This document shows, piece after piece, positions 4,345 to 16,054 of a stretch of 64,000 nt of DNA. A program made the translations under genes and the position numbers. Under the pieces are notes generated by a model. That model searched no databases. It was not told where the DNA came from and saw only the letters and a list, made by a program, of their open reading frames with translations. The DNA comes from Desulfobacteraceae bacterium (GTDB taxonomy: Bacteria > Desulfobacterota > Desulfobacteria > Desulfobacterales > JAABSP01). The stretch lies in assembly GCA_011390345.1 (NCBI GenBank), contig JAABSP010000010.1:1-64000 (forward strand), written 5' to 3'. Position 1 is the first letter of the stretch. Each line of letters starts with the position of its first letter.

Positions 4345-5397
4345 TCAGGAGATCGCCCGCTGCCGCAGGAGATGATCGGCCAGCACCAGGCAGACCATGG
4401 CCTCGCAGACCACGTTGATTCTGGGGATCGCGCTGATGTCATGGCGGCCTTTGACGGAAATGGTTCTCTTCTCTCCGAAACGATCAACAGTCTCCTGGGG
4501 CAGGGAAATGGAGGGAATCGGCTTGACTGCAGCCCGCACCAAGATGTCGTCTCCATTGGAAATCCCGGCAAGAATCCCGCCGGAATGATTGGAGGCAAAG
4601 CCCTCCGGAATGATGGGATCATTGTTCTCCGATCCGAGGCGGCCGGCAACGGAAAAACCGTCGCCTATCTCCACCCCCTTGACTGCGCCGATGCTCATGA
4701 TCGCCTTTGCCAACTCCGCATCGAGCTTGTCAAAGACCGGCTCCCCCAGGCCCGCGGGAACGCCTTTGGCCACCACCTCCACAATGCCGCCCACCGAATC
4801 CCCTTTTGCCTTCACGGCTGCGATGCGCGCCTCCATCTCCTTAGCCGCGTCCGGGTCCGGTGAACCGTATGGGTTCTTCTCCACCTCGGCCCGAAACCGG
4901 TTTCTGGCCCGGACCCCGCCCAGCTCCAGGGTATAGGCCCAGACATCGATCCCCTCCGGCTCCAGCAGGGCCTTTGCCACCGCGCCTGCGGCCACCCTTG
5001 CGGCCGTCTCCCTTGCCGATGCCCGTCCCCCGCCGCGCCAGTCCCGGGCCCCGTATTTGGCCTCATAGGTGATATCCCCGTGGCCGGGCCGGTAGAGATC
5101 CTTATAGGACAAATAGGCTTCGGAGTTTGCATCCTTGTTTTTCAGCAGGATCGAGATGGGGGTTCCGGTGGTCAACCCCTCGAAGACCCCGGAGAGGATC
5201 TTTGCCGTATCCGGCTCTTTTCTGGCGGTGCTGGCGATTGAATTTCCCGGCTTTCTCCGGTCGAGCATGGCTTGAATCATGGAGGGCTCCAGCGGAATCC
5301 GAGACGGACATCCGTCGATGACGACACCGACGCCGCAGCCGTGAGATTCTCCCCAGGTGGTGATTTTGAAGAGCTGTCCGAAACTGTTTCCCGCCAT
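4345..5397 (-). CDS. aroC: Chorismate synthase
   Basis: Converts 5-enolpyruvylshikimate-3-phosphate to chorismate using reduced FMN, the last shared step of aromatic synthesis. The 350 residues carry the family signatures GESHG (16-20), RPGHGD (103-108), DWRGGGRASARET (119-131), NHSGGILAGISNG near 270 and a C-terminal RHD. It is the last gene of the seven-gene aromatic operon and begins one base after the stop of aroK. The 164-bp gap to the convergent cdaA gene holds no clear terminator, only a 7-bp inverted repeat. Confidence 0.97.
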   Translation of the reverse strand: MAGNSFGQLFKITTWGESHGCGVGVVIDGCPSRIPLEPSMIQAMLDRRKPGNSIASTARKEPDTAKILSGVFEGLTTGTPISILLKNKDANSEAYLSYKDLYRPGHGDITYEAKYGARDWRGGGRASARETAARVAAGAVAKALLEPEGIDVWAYTLELGGVRARNRFRAEVEKNPYGSPDPDAAKEMEARIAAVKAKGDSVGGIVEVVAKGVPAGLGEPVFDKLDAELAKAIMSIGAVKGVEIGDGFSVAGRLGSENNDPIIPEGFASNHSGGILAGISNGDDILVRAAVKPIPSISLPQETVDRFGEKRTISVKGRHDISAIPRINVVCEAMVCLVLADHLLRQRAIS

Positions 5398-5398
5398 T

Positions 5399-6001
5399 TC
5401 AGGCCTCCTTTTCCGTATCCTTTAACCATTTCAGGATTCGATCCGCAACAGCTTCGGGAGGAAGCAGATCCGTATCGATTTCCATATCGGCCGCGTCTTT
5501 ATAGAGGGGAAGGCGCTCTTTCAAGGTCTCCTCGATCTCATCCCGGATCTCATCCCCCATCTCATATCGGATCTCATCCCCGATCTTATCCTTGTTCTGA
5601 TTATCGGGAATTCCGCTGCTCCTGCCTTTTTTCAGCGCGGGGCGAAGATCTGCGGTAGCCTCGTCTCCAGCCATCCGGCTTCGAATCGTACCGATCTCGG
5701 CTGTCAGCCAGACTATCTTTCCGCTCTTCTTCATCGCAAAGACATTGGCCGGATCGAGGATTGCGCCGCCGCCGGTCGCGACCACCCCATCGGTTTTCCG
5801 GCTCAATCGGGCAATGGTCTCCTTTTCCAACCTTCGAAATGCGGGCCAGCCGTTTTTTTCCACCATCTGAGCAATGGTCATGCCGCACCTTTCCACGGCA
5901 TCGGCATCGGCATCATAGAACCTTCTGCCGAGCTGCCGGGCCAAAAGGTTCCCCACACTCGTCTTTCCCGTACACCGGTATCCGATTAGATAGAGGTTCA
6001 T
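5399..6001 (-). CDS. aroK: Shikimate kinase with an expanded internal segment
   Basis: Phosphorylates shikimate at the 3-hydroxyl with ATP. The start chosen is the ATG at 6001, which overlaps the aroA stop as ATGA and begins MNLYLIGYRCTGKT, placing the P-loop (GYRCTGKTSVG) where the family has it. An upstream in-frame extension lies inside aroA and is not needed. DADA (substrate/Mg binding) and the TGGGAI motif are present. The 200-residue protein is longer than the usual 165-175. The extra length is a low-complexity, Asp/Glu/Ile/Arg-rich insert after the RPAL lid-region motif, encoded by short DNA repeats (listed separately). Confidence 0.93.
   Translation of the reverse strand: MNLYLIGYRCTGKTSVGNLLARQLGRRFYDADADAVERCGMTIAQMVEKNGWPAFRRLEKETIARLSRKTDGVVATGGGAILDPANVFAMKKSGKIVWLTAEIGTIRSRMAGDEATADLRPALKKGRSSGIPDNQNKDKIGDEIRYEMGDEIRDEIEETLKERLPLYKDAADMEIDTDLLPPEAVADRILKWLKDTEKEA
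5533..5592 (-). repeat. Short repeats expanding the aroK lid region
   Basis: Imperfect copies of a GATCTCATCCC-like unit recur four to five times within about 60 bp. They encode a repetitive GDEIRYEM/GDEIRDEI peptide inside shikimate kinase, between the RPAL motif and the final LYKD segment. The reading frame stays open. Confidence 0.7.
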
Positions 6002-7260
6002 ACCCGGTACAGCCCCTCGAAGACCTTCCAGAAATCGGGAAAGGATTTCCCCACGCACCCCTCCCCCCGGATGAAGACATCCGGAACCCGAAGTCCGGCA
6101 ACCGCAAAGCTCATCGCTATCCGGTGGTCATTATAGGTGTCGATATGCGCACCCTCAGGAGCGCCGCCCCGGATCACCAGCTCCGCATCCCCGGCTTCGG
6201 CTTCGATGCCCATTTTTGAAAGCTCCGTCGCGACCGCGGCCAGCCGGTCGCTCTCCTTGGCCCGCAGATGGGCCACGTTCCGGATCACGGTCGTGCCCTC
6301 CGCGAAGGCTGCGACCACGCCTATTGTCGGGACCATGTCCGGCATATCCCCCATGTCCGCATCAATGGCCTTCAGAGGCCCGCCCGTGACACAGATACCT
6401 CCATCCGCGTCCGACACCGAACATCCCATCTCTTCAAACAGCTCCAGCAGGCGGAGATCCCCCTGGCGGGAATTTCTGGAAACCCCTTGGACGGTTACCG
6501 CGCCGCGGGTAATGGCCCCCGCAGCCCAGAAATAGCTCGCATTGGAGATGTCCGGCTCTACCGAATATTGGCCTGCGCGATAGACCTGCCCCCCGGGAAC
6601 CCGGAAATATTGATACCCCTCCCGTTCGACCTCGACCCCCAGCCGGGCCATCACATCCACGGTCATATCGATATAGGGCCGGGAGACAGGGCCGCGGGTA
6701 ACTTCGATCTCCAGACCCTCTTCGGCAAAGGGTCCGATCAGGAGAAGCCCCGACAGATACTGGCTGCTGAGACTACAGTCGATCTCAGTCCTTCCGCCTT
6801 TGAAATCACCCCCAGAAATCCGGATCGGGGGGCAGCCGTCCCCATTGGCCGAAACCCCCGAAACAGAAAGCTTTTCCAAGGCATTCAACAGCTCCCCAAT
6901 GGGACGCCGGCACATCCGCTCGGTTCCGGTGAGGGTGACCTCGCCGTTGCAGAGGGCAGCAACCGCAGCCAGCAGCCGCATGGAGGTTCCGGAATTGCCG
7001 AGAAAGACCGCTTTTCCCGGAGCAGAGAGTTTCCCACCGCTCCCGCTAACCGTAAAGCTCTTCCCTTCGGCTCGGATTTCGACGCCCATCGCGTGCAGTC
7101 CATCCCGGGTCAAAAGTGTATCCTCGCTCAACAGGGGATTTTCCACCGTACAGATCCCATCGGACAGGGCCGATGCTATGAGCATCCGATGCGTATAGCT
7201 TTTCGATCCCGGAACCGAAACCTGCACACTTCCGATCCTGTGGGGCTTGATCTCCTTCAT
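5998..7260 (-). CDS. aroA: 3-phosphoshikimate 1-carboxyvinyltransferase (EPSP synthase)
   Basis: Joins shikimate-3-phosphate and phosphoenolpyruvate to give EPSP. The 420 residues show PGSKSYTHR at 17-25 (Lys20), LGNSGTSMR at 87-95 in place of the more common LGNAGTAMR, the catalytic Asp308 in DMPDMVPT, RAKESDR at 333-339 and NDHR at 377-380. The glycine equivalent to the glyphosate-contact Gly96 of E. coli is kept. It sits mid-operon, 21 bp after aroE, and overlaps the aroK start by four bases, which suggests translational coupling. Confidence 0.97.
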   Translation of the reverse strand: MKEIKPHRIGSVQVSVPGSKSYTHRMLIASALSDGICTVENPLLSEDTLLTRDGLHAMGVEIRAEGKSFTVSGSGGKLSAPGKAVFLGNSGTSMRLLAAVAALCNGEVTLTGTERMCRRPIGELLNALEKLSVSGVSANGDGCPPIRISGGDFKGGRTEIDCSLSSQYLSGLLLIGPFAEEGLEIEVTRGPVSRPYIDMTVDVMARLGVEVEREGYQYFRVPGGQVYRAGQYSVEPDISNASYFWAAGAITRGAVTVQGVSRNSRQGDLRLLELFEEMGCSVSDADGGICVTGGPLKAIDADMGDMPDMVPTIGVVAAFAEGTTVIRNVAHLRAKESDRLAAVATELSKMGIEAEAGDAELVIRGGAPEGAHIDTYNDHRIAMSFAVAGLRVPDVFIRGEGCVGKSFPDFWKVFEGLYRV

Positions 7261-7281
7261 CTGATTCCTTTTTCCTGTTCT

Positions 7282-8127
7282 TTAGATTCGGCTCTGCAGG
7301 GCCTCGCGTACGGCCCCTTCCATGATCTCCAGCGGAGCCTTTTTTCCGGTCCACAACTCAAACTGAAAAGCCCCTTGCCCAATGAACATGGCAAGGCCGT
7401 CGATGATCATGCACCCTTTTCGGGCCGCGGCCTTTAAAAAGGCGGTCTTCAAAGGATTATAGACGATATCCATCACCACCATCTCCGGCTCCAGGACCGA
7501 TGCCGGAACCGGGACCGCATCCACATCCGGCGTCATGCCGACCGAGGTGGTATTGATCAGGATATCCACATTTTTCCCGTTGAAGTCATTCAGCGGAATA
7601 AAATCCGCATTCAGATCCCGGGCAAGGCGCTCACCTCTCTCCGGAGTACGGTTTACCACTGTCACGGAAGCCCCTTCTGCACGGAGGCCGAATCCGATGG
7701 CCCGGGCCCCGCCGCCGGAACCGAGCAGTGCAGCCCGCTTCCCCCTGACCCTTGTCTTTCGGGAAAGGGCAGAAATGGCCCCTGTACAATCGGAATTGTA
7801 TCCCAGAAGACGCCCATCGAGATTGACCACCGTATTGACCGCGCCGATCTCTGCCGCAAGCCGGTCCAACTCGTCCAGATGGGCCATCACCGCCTCTTTG
7901 TGGGGAATGGTGACGCTCAATCCGCCGATGCCCAACGCGCGCACCCCGCGGATCGCCCCAGCCAAATCCCGGGTTCCGAAGGCCGCATAGGCCCCATTGT
8001 ACCCGATTTGGGCAAAGGCCGCGTTGTGCATGACCGGGCTCAGGCTGTGGGAGACCGGATCGCCGATCACCCCGAAAACCCGGGTGTCCGCATCGGGAAA
8101 CAATCCCGCAGTTTCATCTATGGGCAT
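7282..8127 (-). CDS. aroE: Shikimate dehydrogenase
   Basis: NADPH-dependent reduction of 3-dehydroshikimate to shikimate. The ATG at 8127 was chosen: it lies one base past the pheA stop, follows a strong GGAAAGGGGGGAG ribosome-binding sequence, and gives a normal 281-residue protein. A longer open frame reaches back into pheA but its N-terminus is not family-like. Motifs: SHSLSP (26-31), catalytic Lys77 in SVTIPHKE, NTVVN (98-102), Asp113 in GYNSDCTG, and the nucleotide loop GSGGGARA (137-144). Confidence 0.96.
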   Translation of the reverse strand: MPIDETAGLFPDADTRVFGVIGDPVSHSLSPVMHNAAFAQIGYNGAYAAFGTRDLAGAIRGVRALGIGGLSVTIPHKEAVMAHLDELDRLAAEIGAVNTVVNLDGRLLGYNSDCTGAISALSRKTRVRGKRAALLGSGGGARAIGFGLRAEGASVTVVNRTPERGERLARDLNADFIPLNDFNGKNVDILINTTSVGMTPDVDAVPVPASVLEPEMVVMDIVYNPLKTAFLKAAARKGCMIIDGLAMFIGQGAFQFELWTGKKAPLEIMEGAVREALQSRI

Positions 8128-8128
8128 C

Positions 8129-9292
8129 CTACCGCTCCCCCCTTTCCTGTGTCTTGGGATAGGAGCCGAGCCACTTGAGAAAGAGGCAGAGTTCTCCCAT
8201 CCGGTCAATCGTCTCCGACACCCCCCGATCCTCCAGATGCCCCTCCACATCCGCAAAGAAGAAGTAGCTCCAGTTCTCGTGCTTGGTGGGCCTCGATTCG
8301 AGCTTTACCATGTTGATCCCCGAATCGGCAAGGGGTTTGAGCACTTTATAGAGCGCCCCTGGAATGTGGGAGGTGACGAACATGAGAGAAGTCTTGTCCT
8401 CACCGGTTCGATGAACCTCGTCATGGCCGATGATCAGAAAGCGGGTGGTGTTTCTGGCCGTGTCCTCGATCCTGGAGGCGAGCACCTGCAGGTGGTACAT
8501 CGCGGCCGCCTCGCTGCTGGAGATCGCGGCCGTATCCGGGGTGTTGGACGCTCTTCTGGCCGCATCGGAAGTGCTGTTGCATTCCACACGCTCCGCATCG
8601 GGAAGGTATTTCCGCAGCCACTCCCGGCACTGCGCGAAGGCCTGTGGATGGGAGAAGATGGTCCTGATCTCATTCAATGAAGAGGATCGGGAGAGCAGGT
8701 CATGGGAGATGGTCTGGTAGATCTCCGCACAGATCTTCAGATCCGACTCGAAGAAGAGATCCAGAGTATGGTTGACCGCGCCCTCGATGGAGTTCTCCAC
8801 CGGAACCACGCCGTAATGGCAGGCTCCTTTTTCCACCTCTTTGAAGACATCCCGGATGCTCGGCTGCGGGATCAAAGAGACCCCGAGGCCGAAGTGCTTC
8901 ATTGTTGCGATATGGGTAAAGGTCGCCTCGGGTCCCAGATAGCTCACCCGCTGGGAGGTCTGCAGATCCTTGGACGCGGCCATGATCTGGGCGAAGATCT
9001 GCTTTACCGCATAATCGGCAAGAGGACCCGCATTCCGCCCGGACAGCCGGTTCAGAATCCGGATCTCCCTTGCCTTGTCGATCACCTGTGAACCCTTCCG
9101 GGCCTTGGCCCTGCCGATCTCCTGCGCGAGGGTCAGCCGCCGATTGATCAATCCGAGGATCTCGTCATCGATGGCATCGATCTCCTCCCGCAACTGGGAG
9201 ATCGGAATTTCAGGGGCCGTTTCAGAACCATTTTCGGCCTCTATGCCTGGCTTCAAATCCGCTTCCTTATCATTAACCGGTAAAGATACCAT
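8129..9292 (-). CDS. pheA: Bifunctional chorismate mutase/prephenate dehydratase
   Basis: Turns chorismate into prephenate and then phenylpyruvate, committing carbon to phenylalanine. An N-terminal chorismate mutase helix bundle covers about residues 30-110, the dehydratase about 115-290 with the TRF motif at 283-285, and a C-terminal ACT domain about 300-380 with the ESRP motif (332-335) linked to phenylalanine feedback. The first 28 residues are an unstructured-looking extra tail. The only branch-specific gene of the operon is therefore the phenylalanine branch, which fits the Phe/Tyr-rich leader peptide found upstream. Confidence 0.95.
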   Translation of the reverse strand: MVSLPVNDKEADLKPGIEAENGSETAPEIPISQLREEIDAIDDEILGLINRRLTLAQEIGRAKARKGSQVIDKAREIRILNRLSGRNAGPLADYAVKQIFAQIMAASKDLQTSQRVSYLGPEATFTHIATMKHFGLGVSLIPQPSIRDVFKEVEKGACHYGVVPVENSIEGAVNHTLDLFFESDLKICAEIYQTISHDLLSRSSSLNEIRTIFSHPQAFAQCREWLRKYLPDAERVECNSTSDAARRASNTPDTAAISSSEAAAMYHLQVLASRIEDTARNTTRFLIIGHDEVHRTGEDKTSLMFVTSHIPGALYKVLKPLADSGINMVKLESRPTKHENWSYFFFADVEGHLEDRGVSETIDRMGELCLFLKWLGSYPKTQERGER

Positions 9293-9303
9293 AAGATGGC
9301 TGC

Positions 9304-10296
9304 CTATTTTTCGGTGATGGTTTCATCGATCCGATGCCCGAAATGGCGGCCGCAGGCTTCGCAGGCCACCAGCACACGATCCCCCTTTTGCAGCGACACC
9401 ACGGAGACCGGCTTCCCCTCGGGACTGGTGAGGCGGATGGTCTCGGCATTCTGAACGATGGTGCTGATGGATCTGCCGCCACTTATCGCGCGGATGTACA
9501 TCAGGGGCCGCTTCTCCATTTTTATCCGCCCCACCACCGAAGCTGTAGTGTTCCCCGCATAATCGACCACCAGTACCGAATCCCCGGCCGAAAGCTCGGA
9601 AAGGTACCGCGTCTTTCCGCCGGGAACACGTGTATAGGCGTGCAGAGGCCCCGCGTTGACCCGGAAGGGCCGCGGTGAGACATAAGGGTTTTCGATGCTC
9701 TCGGCATGAACCAGAAAGAGCGCGCCGCTGCTGTTGCCAACCAGCATCCCTTCCCCCAGCCCCATCGCGGTGCAGGTATCCACACAGATCCGATCCCCCA
9801 TCCCGACAGGCCGGATCTCGGTGATCTCGGCCTCCTCCAGCCGCGTTACTCCCTCGTTCCCCTTCAGGGTATCCAGGGCCTTTTTGAGATCCGCGGGATT
9901 CTTCGGATGGTAGAGGATACTGTTGACCCCCTTTTCGAGGATGCCGAACGCAGTCTGTGCATCATCGATGCTTTCCACCTGGGCCACCACATCCGCGCCC
10001 CTGGCAATGAGGTTTTCCAGTGGGATGATGCTCCAGTCGCTGCACTGGAGGACCACCCGCGCTTCCCGGCTCAACCGTAGGATCTCATCCTCGTCCGCGC
10101 CGCTCTGGATGGTGTAGAAGATCACATCCTGACCCGGCACGAGATCGCCGTCCTCGGCCACGGTCTCGATCTTACCGAGCTGCCGCACCTTCTCTGCATA
10201 CCCTGGAGGGATCACCAGCGCATCCGCGCCTCCTTCGAGGGCTGTGGTGACCACATCCTTGTCCCAGGGATCGATATTGACCCAGATCGTCCGCAT
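9304..10296 (-). CDS. 3-dehydroquinate synthase II (archaeal type)
   Basis: Oxidatively deaminates and cyclises 2-amino-3,7-dideoxy-D-threo-hept-6-ulosonate (ADH) to 3-dehydroquinate; it is unrelated in sequence to classical AroB. The start at 10296 gives MRTIWVNIDPWDK and 330 residues, the expected length; an open frame upstream runs into the previous gene and is not family-like. Features typical of the family are the QCSDWSIIPLENLIA segment, the NPADLKKAL region and GDRICVDTC followed by GEGMLVGNSSG. It follows the ADH synthase gene by 10 bp. No classical aroB was seen in the window. Confidence 0.93.
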   Translation of the reverse strand: MRTIWVNIDPWDKDVVTTALEGGADALVIPPGYAEKVRQLGKIETVAEDGDLVPGQDVIFYTIQSGADEDEILRLSREARVVLQCSDWSIIPLENLIARGADVVAQVESIDDAQTAFGILEKGVNSILYHPKNPADLKKALDTLKGNEGVTRLEEAEITEIRPVGMGDRICVDTCTAMGLGEGMLVGNSSGALFLVHAESIENPYVSPRPFRVNAGPLHAYTRVPGGKTRYLSELSAGDSVLVVDYAGNTTASVVGRIKMEKRPLMYIRAISGGRSISTIVQNAETIRLTSPEGKPVSVVSLQKGDRVLVACEACGRHFGHRIDETITEK

Positions 10297-10306
10297 GATA
10301 TTCCCC

Positions 10307-11104
10307 CTATTCCAGAATCCGAAGGGCTTCGGCCACGGTCGCCTCTTCATGGACGATCGCGGAGATGGCCTGCACCATCTTTGTCGGGTCCCGGTGCTGG
10401 AAGACATTTCTGCCGATGGAAACCCCGGAGCCGCCCGCGTCGATCGAGCCCTTGACCATCTGCAGAATATCCCCATCCGAATCCATCTTGGGCCCTCCCG
10501 CGATCACCACGGGGACCTCGCACCCCTCCACAACCTCCCGGAAGGTCTCCGGAGATCCGGTGTAGGAGACCTTTACGAGATCCGCGCCCATCTCATATCC
10601 GACCCGCGCCGCATGTTTGACCACGTTCACATCGTATTCGTCTTTGATCTTCTCTCCGCGAGGATACATCATGGCCAGCAGCGGCAGCCCCCAGTTGCGG
10701 GTCTCATAGCTGATCCGGCCGAAGTCTGCAAGCATCTCCTTCTCCTGTCCGTTGCCGAGGTTGACGTGGATGGAGACCGCGTCCGCGCCCAGCTTGATGG
10801 CCTCCTCCACCGAGCAGACCAGGGTCTTGGCATTGGGGTACATGGATAAAGAGGTGGAGGCGGAGAGATGTATGATGAGCCCGATGTCGGTCCCCTGCCG
10901 GCGATGGCCTTCGGCAATCAGCCCCTTGTGCTCCACGATCGCGTTGGCCCCGCCCTTCGCGATCTTGGCAATGGTGGTCTTCATGTCCCGGATGCCGTCG
11001 ATGGGACCCACGGATATGCCGTGGTCCATTGGAACGATGACGGTCTTGCGGGTGTTTCTGTTGATGATGCGCTCCAGCCGGATCTGTTTGCCCAAAATGG
11101 TCAT
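10307..11104 (-). CDS. ADH synthase (2-amino-3,7-dideoxy-D-threo-hept-6-ulosonate synthase)
   Basis: First enzyme of the alternative aromatic route: it condenses aspartate semialdehyde with a 6-deoxy-5-ketofructose phosphate to give ADH, replacing the DAHP synthase entry. The 265-residue protein is a DhnA-type class I aldolase. Residues matching those known from the Methanocaldococcus enzyme are Asp27 (MDHG), Tyr147 (MMYPRG) and the Schiff-base Lys178 (DLVKVSYTG). An AAGGAGG ribosome-binding site precedes the ATG. It is the first structural gene of the aromatic operon and lies directly behind the attenuator-like leader. A plain fructose-bisphosphate aldolase role is less likely given the DHQ synthase II neighbour. 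Confidence 0.93.
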
Positions 11105-11119
11105 AATGCTTCCTCCTTT

Positions 11120-11150
11120 TAAGGATACTTTGATTATAAGGATACTTTGA
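11120..11150 (-). repeat. Direct repeats in front of the ADH synthase ribosome-binding site
   Basis: Two identical 14-bp copies of TAAGGATACTTTGA (plus-strand reading; 11120-11133 and 11137-11150) are spaced 17 bp apart. They sit between the second terminator hairpin and the ribosome-binding site. Their core GGATACTTTGA resembles the 19-bp repeats at 11402-11439. Confidence 0.9.
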
Positions 11151-11152
11151 GC

Positions 11153-11195
11153 AAAAAAGGCCGGGAAGGTCTCTTTTCAGCCCCCCGGCCTTTAA
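11153..11195 (-). terminator. Second leader terminator hairpin (T2) of the aromatic operon
   Basis: Read on the minus strand, AAAGGCCGGG pairs with CCCGGCCTTT and is followed by a run of T ending in TTTTTTGC. It is an intrinsic terminator shape lying 49 bp before the ADH synthase ATG, so it must be bypassed for the operon to be expressed. Confidence 0.85.
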
Positions 11196-11200
11196 AAATC

Positions 11201-11242
11201 AAAAAGCCGTGGGAGCTTTTTCGGTCTCCCCACGGCTTTTTT
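11201..11242 (-). terminator. First leader terminator hairpin (T1) of the aromatic operon
   Basis: Minus-strand AAAAAAGCCGTGGGGAG pairs with CTCCCACGGCTTTTT in a long stem, followed by a T-rich stretch. It begins about 23 bases after the stop codon of the leader peptide. A segment of the leader-peptide region, GCCTGGGG (11274-11281), can pair imperfectly with the distal arm (11206-11214), and CGGCTTTTTT (11311-11320) is complementary to the proximal arm (11233-11242). Confidence 0.88.
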
Positions 11243-11265
11243 GCTATGTTATGGACTTCAGCCCA

Positions 11266-11349
11266 TCAGCGCGCCCCAGGCAAACCTCCGGCGTAAAAAT
11301 AGTAAAAGTAAAAAAAGCCGAAAAAGTTACCTGTGATGTGATGAGCCAT
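11266..11349 (-). CDS. Phe/Tyr-rich leader peptide of the aromatic operon
   Basis: A 27-codon reading frame starting ATG at 11349 and ending TGA at 11266. Eleven consecutive residues, FFGFFYFYYFY, hold six Phe and four Tyr codons; the rest of the peptide is unremarkable. Upstream ATGs of the same frame lie at or before the -35 box, so this is the only start of the frame on the predicted transcript. There is no good Shine-Dalgarno sequence; the region before the ATG is AT-rich. The stop codon is followed at once by a six-pair hairpin (11251-11266) and then by T1 and T2. The layout matches transcription attenuation by ribosome stalling at Phe/Tyr codons. Function is inferred; the sequence pattern is directly visible. 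Confidence 0.8.
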   Translation of the reverse strand: MAHHITGNFFGFFYFYYFYAGGLPGAR

Positions 11350-11401
11350 TATAAATTTTGGATATCGTTTAAATTGCTGTTCCGTAAAAAAATCAAAGAA
11401 T

Positions 11402-11439
11402 GAATACTTTGAAAAACAGGGAATACTTCGAAAAACAGG
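11402..11439 (-). repeat. Tandem 19-bp direct repeats in the operon leader
   Basis: GAATACTTTGAAAAACAGG (11402-11420) is followed directly by a copy with one mismatch (11421-11439). The pair is downstream of the predicted start of transcription. The core GAATACTT(T/C)GA recurs as GGATACTTTGA twice at 11123-11150. The second copy overlaps a small hairpin, ACAGGT-TTTTT-ACCTGT (11435-11451). Confidence 0.9.
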
Positions 11440-11473
11440 TTTTTTACCTGTAGTTGTCAAACTGATACGACAC

Positions 11474-11501
11474 CTTATATCCGGCCACTTCCCCTTGTCA
11501 A
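11474..11501 (-). promoter_or_regulatory. Promoter of the aromatic operon
   Basis: On the minus strand a perfect TTGACA (-35, 11496-11501) and TATAAG (-10, 11474-11479) are separated by 16 bp. Transcription would start near 11467, giving a leader of about 360 bases that includes the repeats, leader peptide and both terminators before the first structural gene at 11104. Confidence 0.75.
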
Positions 11502-13854: not shown

Positions 13855-15942
13855 TCAGAAGCCTTTCAGTTTCAAGTAGGCTTCCCGCAGCCGCAGAAGA
13901 TGCTGCCGGATATACCGCTCATTCAGCCGATCCTCATTATAATAGACCCATTCCAACCCGTGCAGTTCCCGCGGAATCACTGCAATCTCCGGGTTGATAA
14001 TGTTCCGTTCTCCCTCCTCTGCAATCGCGGTCTGATGCTCATATGTCCAGTGATCCGATCCCGTCACCTGAACATATTTCGGCTTCATATCCTTCCGGGG
14101 CGTTAACGGCAGCGTGATCCGGATGCCGCCGGACCGCTCTCCGGTATCGGTTCCGATATGCCGGTAGAAGAAGGTGATGGCCGTATCCCCGAAAAACCGC
14201 TTCATCTCCAGCGTCACGCCTTTATCCTGATACCAGTATTGTCCGTAGGTCCCCTCCAGAAACAGATCGAGCCGCTCCCAGTAGAACCGATAAGATCCGA
14301 GCCATATCTCCCTTTCCAGATCGGTCGCATCATCCTCGAAGTATCCCAGCCGCAGCCCCAGCCGATGCCTTCCGTTGCCGGGGCTCCAGAAGGTCTGGTT
14401 CATGACGCCGGTGTTGTCTTCCAGATACTGTCCGACGCTGAACTGGGTCATCAGATCCGGTGAGATCTTCACCGCCTGATGGAGCATCACCCGCTCCAGT
14501 TTTGCATCGTCCCGATAAGGCTCCCAAGGCTCCCCGTCATCGAAATTCTCGCTCCAGAAGATCGGGATATCCCACCTCGCGGCAAGAACACCGCCATACC
14601 AGAGATGCACCCATGCATCCGGCTTCAAAGAGACCAGATAGTCAAAGGCGCTGATCTCGGTTCCCAGAAATGTCCGCAATCCAGGATAGAGTGCAATTCT
14701 CGGAATGAAACGGCTCGAATTGAGCTTATCCCCGATAAACAGGACATCTTCGACACCGGAGGAGGCATCCGCGGAAATGGCAAGCGCCTCTGAAAAGGTT
14801 TTTTTCTGCCCCGAACCCACCCGCTCTGCCAGCAGGAAGTCCCGGGCCTGTTCCACAGGTACTTCCACTTTGATCATGGGGATGCTCCGCTTTTTCAATA
14901 CCACCATCATCCGACCCATCTCTTCCGGAGCCATTCTGGCGGCAAATCCCATCACCAGCCCCAGCCCGTCCAGTTCATTATGATTGTATCGGTTGTTTTC
15001 ATATTCGATATAAAGGGTATCTTCACCGACAATGCCGGCTCTGACATTTTCAAATCCCAGCTTCACGAGAAAATCCTTGAGCCGGACAATTCGATCTGCG
15101 GCCGTCCCCATATCCGATTCTTCACCATCCCCATCTGCAGGAGATCTATCCCACATCTGACGGGAAGGCGCGACAGGTTCATATCCGGCCGAAGAAATGG
15201 ATTCTCCATCATCCAGCATATCTTCATCCCTCTGACTGTACCCCAGCGGAATCTGAAGGCTTACCGCCAGATCCAGTTCACCCGGCTCATGATCCAGAGA
15301 GGTCTTTGCCGTAAGGCCGAGCTGCGCGGGATAGCCGAAAATATGCGGCGTCAGCAGCCGGATACCCAGGTTCTCCTCATCCGTATCATGTTCGGCCAGA
15401 AGATAGAGCCAGTCGAATACCCGGACCTCCGCGCCGCCGAAGATCCCATCGAGCCGGTCCGGCCCCGTGCCATATCCGAAACTGAGCCGAAGCGGCGCGA
15501 TCTCTTTTGAAAATACGAGGTATTTCGTCTCGAAATGGGTCGAACCGCCGCCGATATCCTGAATGCCCAGAGCGATATCGGGAAAGTATCGGCTTTCAAA
15601 AGGCAAGGGTATCTGCACCTTTGCATTCGCGGAGAGGTCTCTGATGCCGTCCGGATGCTCCTCCGTAAACCGGCCCCCGATCTCGAAGTAGGGGAGGAAA
15701 CCGATGGAAAAGAGATAATTCTCTGCACTATCCTGCAGATGGCGCCGATACGGCTCCACCTGATCGGAAAAGAGCATGTAGAGCCGACCGTTCTGCGTTA
15801 CCTCGGCATTGGGAGTATTCAGCAGTCCCGTATACCCCTGGAGTGACAGCGCATTGTGCAGCTCTTCGGCATGTCCTGATGAAGAGAGCAATAACCCCGC
15901 AATAACCCCGATAAAAATTCCAAAGCGCCCGATGGATCTCAT
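13855..15942 (-). CDS. YjbH-like outer-membrane protein linked to exopolysaccharide
   Basis: A 695-residue exported protein of the YjbH type. The ATG at 15942 is chosen because AAGGAAGG and AAAAGG sequences precede it and it starts directly with a signal peptide (MRSIGRFGIFIGVIAGLLLSS...GHA); an ATG 18 codons earlier is possible. The mature protein opens with LQGYTGLLNTPNAEV, typical of this family, followed by a barrel-like half, a soluble acidic middle, and a second barrel-like half. YjbH proteins accompany exopolysaccharide export. It is divergent from the SLBB export gene, which supports that role. Confidence 0.75.
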   Translation of the reverse strand: MRSIGRFGIFIGVIAGLLLSSSGHAEELHNALSLQGYTGLLNTPNAEVTQNGRLYMLFSDQVEPYRRHLQDSAENYLFSIGFLPYFEIGGRFTEEHPDGIRDLSANAKVQIPLPFESRYFPDIALGIQDIGGGSTHFETKYLVFSKEIAPLRLSFGYGTGPDRLDGIFGGAEVRVFDWLYLLAEHDTDEENLGIRLLTPHIFGYPAQLGLTAKTSLDHEPGELDLAVSLQIPLGYSQRDEDMLDDGESISSAGYEPVAPSRQMWDRSPADGDGEESDMGTAADRIVRLKDFLVKLGFENVRAGIVGEDTLYIEYENNRYNHNELDGLGLVMGFAARMAPEEMGRMMVVLKKRSIPMIKVEVPVEQARDFLLAERVGSGQKKTFSEALAISADASSGVEDVLFIGDKLNSSRFIPRIALYPGLRTFLGTEISAFDYLVSLKPDAWVHLWYGGVLAARWDIPIFWSENFDDGEPWEPYRDDAKLERVMLHQAVKISPDLMTQFSVGQYLEDNTGVMNQTFWSPGNGRHRLGLRLGYFEDDATDLEREIWLGSYRFYWERLDLFLEGTYGQYWYQDKGVTLEMKRFFGDTAITFFYRHIGTDTGERSGGIRITLPLTPRKDMKPKYVQVTGSDHWTYEHQTAIAEEGERNIINPEIAVIPRELHGLEWVYYNEDRLNERYIRQHLLRLREAYLKLKGF

Positions 15943-16054
15943 AAGCCTTTTGCCCTTCCTTGATGATTGTGTTCCTGGGTAGATGTCTGTAAACATTGAT
16001 TTAAGATAACTTCCGCATATAACAGGTGTTTCTAAATACCAGAATTAAAACCAT

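Follow-up and report, generated by a model that had tools for sequence, protein, structure and literature searches.

The analysis of the 64,000-nucleotide stretch of Desulfobacteraceae DNA (contig JAABSP010000010.1, positions 1 to 64,000; hereafter the window) indicated that an aromatic operon on its minus strand is very probably controlled by a ribosome-mediated transcription attenuator, in which pairing of two leader segments (2:3) is predicted to sense Phe and Tyr, and in most relatives Trp as well. Seven genes, from ADTH synthase to aroC, lie 3' of the leader and its terminators: ADTH synthase, the first gene of the operon (10307..11104; NCBIfam TIGR01949 above cut-off), 3-dehydroquinate synthase II (DHQ synthase II; 9304..10308), chorismate mutase/prephenate dehydratase (pheA; 8129..9292), and aroE, aroA, aroK and aroC, which form the remainder of this compact operon (4345..8256). 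The operon thus serves the synthesis of the same amino acids whose codons fill the leader, as is expected of an attenuator. DHQ synthase II directly follows ADTH synthase in 164 of 165 relatives, the nearest named ones, according to the ADTH synthase protein, being Desulfonema magnum and Desulfobacterales metagenome genomes. Elsewhere on the minus strand of the window, a large protein with a YjbH domain (exopolysaccharide-related, Pfam PF06082) is encoded at 13858-15996.

The elements of the leader region are all located on the minus strand, upstream of the ADTH synthase gene. A good sigma-70 promoter had been proposed at 11474-11501, and a putative sigma-70-like promoter sequence, TTGACA-16-TATAAG, was indeed found there. 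A stock promoter and terminator scan of the window returned nothing at the promoter or at either terminator; the promoter was missed because the scanner requires a T at position 6 of the -10 element, and the terminators because its loop limit is 8 bases. The putative leader open reading frame of 27 codons (MAHHITGNFFGFFYFYYFYAGGLPGAR-stop; 11266..11349) has no recognisable Shine-Dalgarno sequence ahead of its ATG and contains the control codons in the run FFGFFYFYYFY, with 6 Phe and 4 Tyr in 11 residues (11293..11325). Segment 1 (CACAGGTAAC; 11326..11335) is predicted to pair with segment 2 when the leader carries no ribosome. Segment 2 (GGTTTGCCTGGGGC; 11273..11286), the candidate 5' half of the antiterminator, is located within the reading frame, ahead of its stop codon, which is overlapped by a small hairpin (ATGGGCTGAAGTCCAT; 11251..11266; -5.4 kcal/mol) that caps the antiterminator in the predicted starved folds. 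Terminator 1 (T1, segments 3:4; 11201..11241; -20.7 kcal/mol) has a U-tract made of U5 inside the stem end followed by GATTTTT; its ascending arm and the start of its loop constitute segment 3 (GCCGTGGGGAGACC; 11223..11236), the candidate 3' half of the antiterminator, and its descending arm is segment 4 (CTCCCACGGCTTTTT; 11201..11215). Terminator 2 (T2, segments 5:6; 11153..11193; -23.3 kcal/mol, U6) begins with segment 5 (AAAGGCCGGGGGG; 11181..11193), its ascending arm, which is complementary to segment 4. Both terminators were recovered by folding and both stems showed covariation, while the folding z score of the 361-nt leader RNA of the window was -4.0. Sequence and folds therefore confirmed the Phe/Tyr-rich leader, the hairpin at its stop codon and both terminators where the original prediction had placed them. 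An exact TATAAT is present at 11138-11133, between T2 and the ADTH synthase gene and 29-34 bases before the gene start, and as a sequence motif it could be a source of unregulated transcripts. It is included in a tandem direct repeat (TCAAAGTATCCTT; 11115-11149) between T2 and the ribosome-binding site, and words similar to this repeat (AAGTATTC) occur near 11400-11425.

Conservation of the leader was analysed in regions upstream of ADTH synthase orthologues from across the order. The search among relatives called for by the original prediction revealed a leader reading frame rich in Phe and Tyr (and often Trp) in 84 of 90 orthologues, and 4 of the 6 exceptions were cut by contig ends. The other two, L032 and L033, had full upstream sequence yet no clear leader; in G001, the closest family member that has a homologue, this homologue was merely a paralogue of 58% identity, and the 236 nt at hand contained no leader of this type. 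At least 6 Phe or Tyr in 11 residues were found in 83 of 86 real upstream regions of 400 nt and in only 9 of 430 (2.1%) dinucleotide shuffles of these regions. For the window region, none of 1000 dinucleotide shuffles reached 8 or more Phe or Tyr in 11 residues (maximum, 7), as compared to 10 in the window itself. In the named GTDB collection, whose species overlap with the main set, 72 of 75 regions passed the leader test; of the three that failed, L191 (MNENISGRFWYYFSTGLPGVR) was clearly a leader by eye. The consensus leader approximated M--xFSGRFYFWYYYFSTGLPGVR-stop; the 768 control codons of the 84 leaders comprised 308 Phe, 400 Tyr and 60 Trp, the latter being present in 52 leaders. An alignment of 61 leaders (A1) showed conserved blocks in segment 1 (CAGGCAGA, Ser-Gly-Arg codons) and segment 2 (GGTCTGCCTG, Gly-Leu-Pro codons, plus GCGCT at the stop), followed by AGCGC, segment 3 (GCCGTGGGCAGACC), segment 4 (GCCCACGGC and a U-tract), segment 5 (GGCCGTGGAG) and segment 6 (CTTCACGGCC and a U-tract).

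The C-terminus TGLPxVR is conserved in the leaders upstream of ADTH synthase (ADTHS leaders), as might be expected if the short frame encoded a working microprotein or an arrest peptide and the terminators were ordinary ones. However, GGTCTGCC encodes GLP in ADTHS leaders but, with the frame shifted by one base, Val-Cys-Pro (VCP) in many DAHP synthase leaders, and 74 of 75 ADTHS leaders use CTG or TTG for the Leu of GLP. This indicates conservation of the RNA rather than of the peptide. In the ADTHS leader L019, moreover, a one-base gap alters the peptide while most of the pairing nucleotides are kept, and third positions as well as the complementary RNA segments are likewise conserved. A functional peptide is thus a highly improbable explanation.

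Across the relatives, the GGT-CTG-CCT codons near the leader stop (segment 2) are complementary to the ascending arm and loop of T1 (GGCAGACC, segment 3). The complementary sets are 1:2, 2:3 and 4:5, plus the terminator stems 3:4 and 5:6, and they constitute two mutually exclusive and fully nested states, one for stop (1:2/3:4/5:6) and one for go (2:3/4:5). In a partner-swap test, the duplex energy of each genome's own partners was compared to that of partners exchanged among genomes. The z values were -12.0 for 1:2, -9.9 for 2:3 (own -22.2 vs swapped -19.5 kcal/mol), -18 for 3:4, -8.2 for 4:5 and -18.7 for 5:6, while the non-partner controls gave -0.3 (2:5), -0.2 (2:6), -1.7 (3:6) and -1.6 (1:4); since these controls have the same genealogy, relatedness alone yields small z values. 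Repetition of the test with 52 other loci of the phylum resulted in z values of -12.7 for 2:3 and -5.3 for 4:5, with controls from -2.3 to +1.2. Changes on both sides of a pair were also more numerous than in shuffles for the stop state (130 vs 37) and the go state (47 vs 24.5), as well as for 2:3 alone (8 vs 3.5) and 4:5 alone (18 vs 6.2). The control helix 3:6, a wrong pair, slightly exceeded the shuffles too (10 vs 4.7), so that part of the 4:5 signal reflects the similarity between the cores of the two terminators, and 4:5 is supported rather than proven. Taken together, the partner-swap and covariation tests, which draw on sequence comparison, argue strongly for the predicted pairing 2:3 and moderately for 4:5. 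In the window, the 2:3 helix includes one mismatch and G-U pairs.

A different competitor of T1 had initially been suggested, in which GCCTGGGG would pair with the T1 distal arm (2:4). This pairing was weak (own vs swapped, -11.3 vs -10.9 kcal/mol; z -2.3) and was rejected, the better-supported partner being the proximal arm and loop of T1, as in 2:3.

Folding in order of transcription was performed with a masked ribosome placed at the central control codon (starved fold) and with the transcript folded just before segment 4 emerges. This ribosome-masked folding, also proposed at the outset, yielded 2:3 in all 84 leaders, the window included, where the starved fold has approximately 12 pairs and an energy of -27.5 kcal/mol with the stop-codon hairpin included. 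Just before segment 6 emerges, 4:5 was present in 88% of the starved vs 19% of the replete folds, and 3:4 in 13% of the starved vs 79% of the replete folds. The same masking procedure recovered the expected antiterminator of E. coli pheL. Once T1 was complete, equilibrium folding favoured T1 in most starved folds too, and in the window at full length the terminator state was more stable (-65 vs -52 kcal/mol); relief would therefore have to be kinetic. The initial concern that T1 is too stable for its competitor holds at equilibrium, but not in transcription order, because 2:3 is predicted in all 84 leaders at a point where the distal arm has yet to be transcribed. The replete equilibrium fold of the window, taken before segment 6, likewise contained 4:5 (8.7 vs 12.9 pairs). 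With this feature, its imperfect 2:3 helix and the lack of a visible Shine-Dalgarno sequence, the window copy is among the less regular ones.

The conservation of the leader, its codon content, the mutually exclusive pairings, their co-variation and the folds in order of transcription were all established computationally, and conservation, codon content and alternative pairings give strong support to the proposed Phe/Tyr attenuation of the ADTH synthase operon. From these patterns we infer that the leader is translated, that termination occurs and is relieved, which signal is sensed, and that the step 4:5 takes place in vivo. When aromatic amino acids are plentiful, the ribosome would reach the leader stop and cover segment 2, so that T1 (3:4) would fold and transcription would halt, with T2 (5:6) catching the polymerases that pass T1. 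When charged tRNA-Phe or tRNA-Tyr is short, the ribosome would stall in the codon run and leave segment 2 free while segment 3 is being made; 2:3 would then form before segment 4 exists, and T1 could therefore not form. Segment 4, thus freed, would capture segment 5, so that T2 could not form either and the operon would be read. In a leader without a ribosome, 1:2 would shield segment 2 and the terminators would prevail.

The relay pairing 4:5 as a means of disarming T2 is considered likely from the sequence comparisons and folds, and it fits with the second terminator, whose role the original prediction had left unexplained. An ordinary four-segment attenuator, in which T1 alone would be regulated via 2:3, T2 would be a leaky unregulated backup and 4:5 a by-product of similar GC-rich terminators, appears unlikely by comparison, even though the core GCCGTGG is common to both terminators, the control pair 3:6 likewise exceeds the shuffles, and T2 is preferred to 4:5 in the full-length equilibrium. 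Against it stand the both-side changes, which are more numerous for 4:5 than for 3:6 in relation to their shuffles (18 vs 6.2 and 10 vs 4.7, respectively), and the energy gain, which is larger for 4:5 (z -8.2) than for 3:6 (z -1.7). Moreover, a strong unregulated T2 would stop most of the induced transcription. Natural variants of the terminators bear on the same question. Seven ADTHS leaders (L031, L062, L063, L068, L077, L082, and L087) have few U after T1, and all of them keep the T2 U-tract and still present 4:5 in the starved folds. T1 also lacks a U-tract in 11 of the 52 other phylum loci, including the ADTHS loci L113, L116, L118, and L119, and these 11 loci keep the T2 terminator. From their sequences, some lineages seem to have lost the T1 U-tract and thereby silenced T1; in such loci, control could reach a terminator only via the relay, whereas a four-segment attenuator would leave these lineages without any regulated terminator. 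About nine of the 84 leaders have no clear T2, as the four-segment reading would allow, and at least one hairpin with a U-tract was present in every leader examined.

A covariance model (R1) built from alignment A1 was searched against the window's own genome and the phylum. In the own genome, R1 matched with E < 1e-6 at the present site and at two further leaders, both on the minus strand and both with two terminators: a Trp-rich leader (CWWCWW) with the same GGGTCTGCC segment before trpE (L094, C25:32210-32352), and a Phe-rich leader (FFFGFFGGFYFF; MASSQNFFFGFFGGFYFFMGCP) before the phenylacetate-CoA ligase gene paaK (L093, C195:79986-80196). The latter suggests, from its codons, that paaK is used here for the synthesis of Phe from phenylacetate. 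Weaker matches, each with one terminator, were an F/Y/W leader (MEQKTLYFSFFNYFWCWQHSTRLEGCSEPMAE) before a DAHP synthase of the TIGR01361 type (L096, C140:24232-24397, plus strand) and an Ile/Leu/Val-rich leader before ilvD (L097, C60:13385-13567, minus strand). In the phylum, R1 matched at E <= 0.01 in 140 of 247 genomes. The model also matches the palindromes of terminators from the other strand (L095, E 3e-4), and distant loci were therefore interpreted only at E ~1e-6 or better. At this level, 36 of 40 examined matches lie before DAHP synthase, TrpE, ADTH synthase, PaaK or a PRK06836 aminotransferase, and their leader codons fit the product, with Trp before trpE, Phe before paaK and a mixture before DAHP synthase. 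Both the ADTHS leader and the trpE leader are present in Desulfonema magnum. In this species, another Trp-rich leader with terminators (L250, 3087962-3088165) is followed by a transposase-like reading frame, possibly because an insertion displaced the target gene.

Two conserved hairpins and mutually exclusive structures would be compatible with a riboswitch, a T-box or an RNA-binding protein as sensor in place of the leader ribosome. The leader codon content, however, follows the downstream pathway, and Rfam covariance models, including Phe_leader, matched nothing in the window at E up to 1 and no leader among eight related loci at the gathering score, where the sole match was a tRNA elsewhere in L097; the probability of such a sensor is accordingly very small. 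With sensing by the leader ribosome as the preferred reading, we lean slightly towards a broader proposal, namely that a single modular 'double-gate' cassette is a main control of aromatic amino acid synthesis in Desulfobacterota. Segments 2-6 and the serial terminators would be kept, the codons (F/Y/W, F/Y, F or W) would be swapped before ADTH synthase, DAHP synthases, trpE, the aminotransferase and phenylacetate-CoA ligase, and both gates would be disarmed by one ribosome via 2:3 and then 4:5. The set offers more than 100 naturally occurring versions of an attenuator that has its two terminators in series, some with the first seemingly silenced, so that the control of two terminators by one ribosome event, and its mode, can be put to the test. 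Control of amino acid synthesis is further predicted for uncultured sulfate reducers and for cultured ones such as Desulfonema magnum and Desulfobotulus alkaliphilus.

No leader-peptide attenuator for the ADTH synthase route, or for this phylum, was found described in the open-licence literature. The original prediction had compared the layout with pheA-type leaders, which holds as an analogy but not as a class assignment, given the absence of an Rfam match at E up to 1 and the presence of Phe, Tyr and often Trp in the leaders of relatives. The E. coli pheL-pheA system (Rfam Phe_leader type) likewise has a Phe-rich leader peptide, an antiterminator 2:3 opposed to a terminator 3:4, and chorismate mutase/prephenate dehydratase in the controlled operon. 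It differs in that segment 2 is located after the stop codon, and not in the last leader codons, and in having one terminator instead of two; in the present set, moreover, the leaders mix Phe, Tyr and Trp, and the operon begins with ADTH synthase and DHQ synthase II. The his operon attenuator of Salmonella and E. coli consists of six segments, with A:B, C:D and E:F opposed to B:C and D:E, and its only terminator is E:F. The predicted relay of six segments and two exclusive helix sets follows a similar logic here, whereas the central hairpin 3:4 of most species is an intrinsic terminator in its own right, and those without a U-tract on 3:4 represent a his-like form. Tandem terminators with a candidate antiterminator have been described in the rimP-leader of some gammaproteobacteria (Naville and Gautheret 2010, PMC2965389), which concerns another gene and bacterial group and is not an aromatic leader-peptide system. 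The arrangement predicted here from sequence and folding is therefore a layout of six segments similar to his, with a putative terminator at each gate, used phylum-wide for aromatic amino acids.
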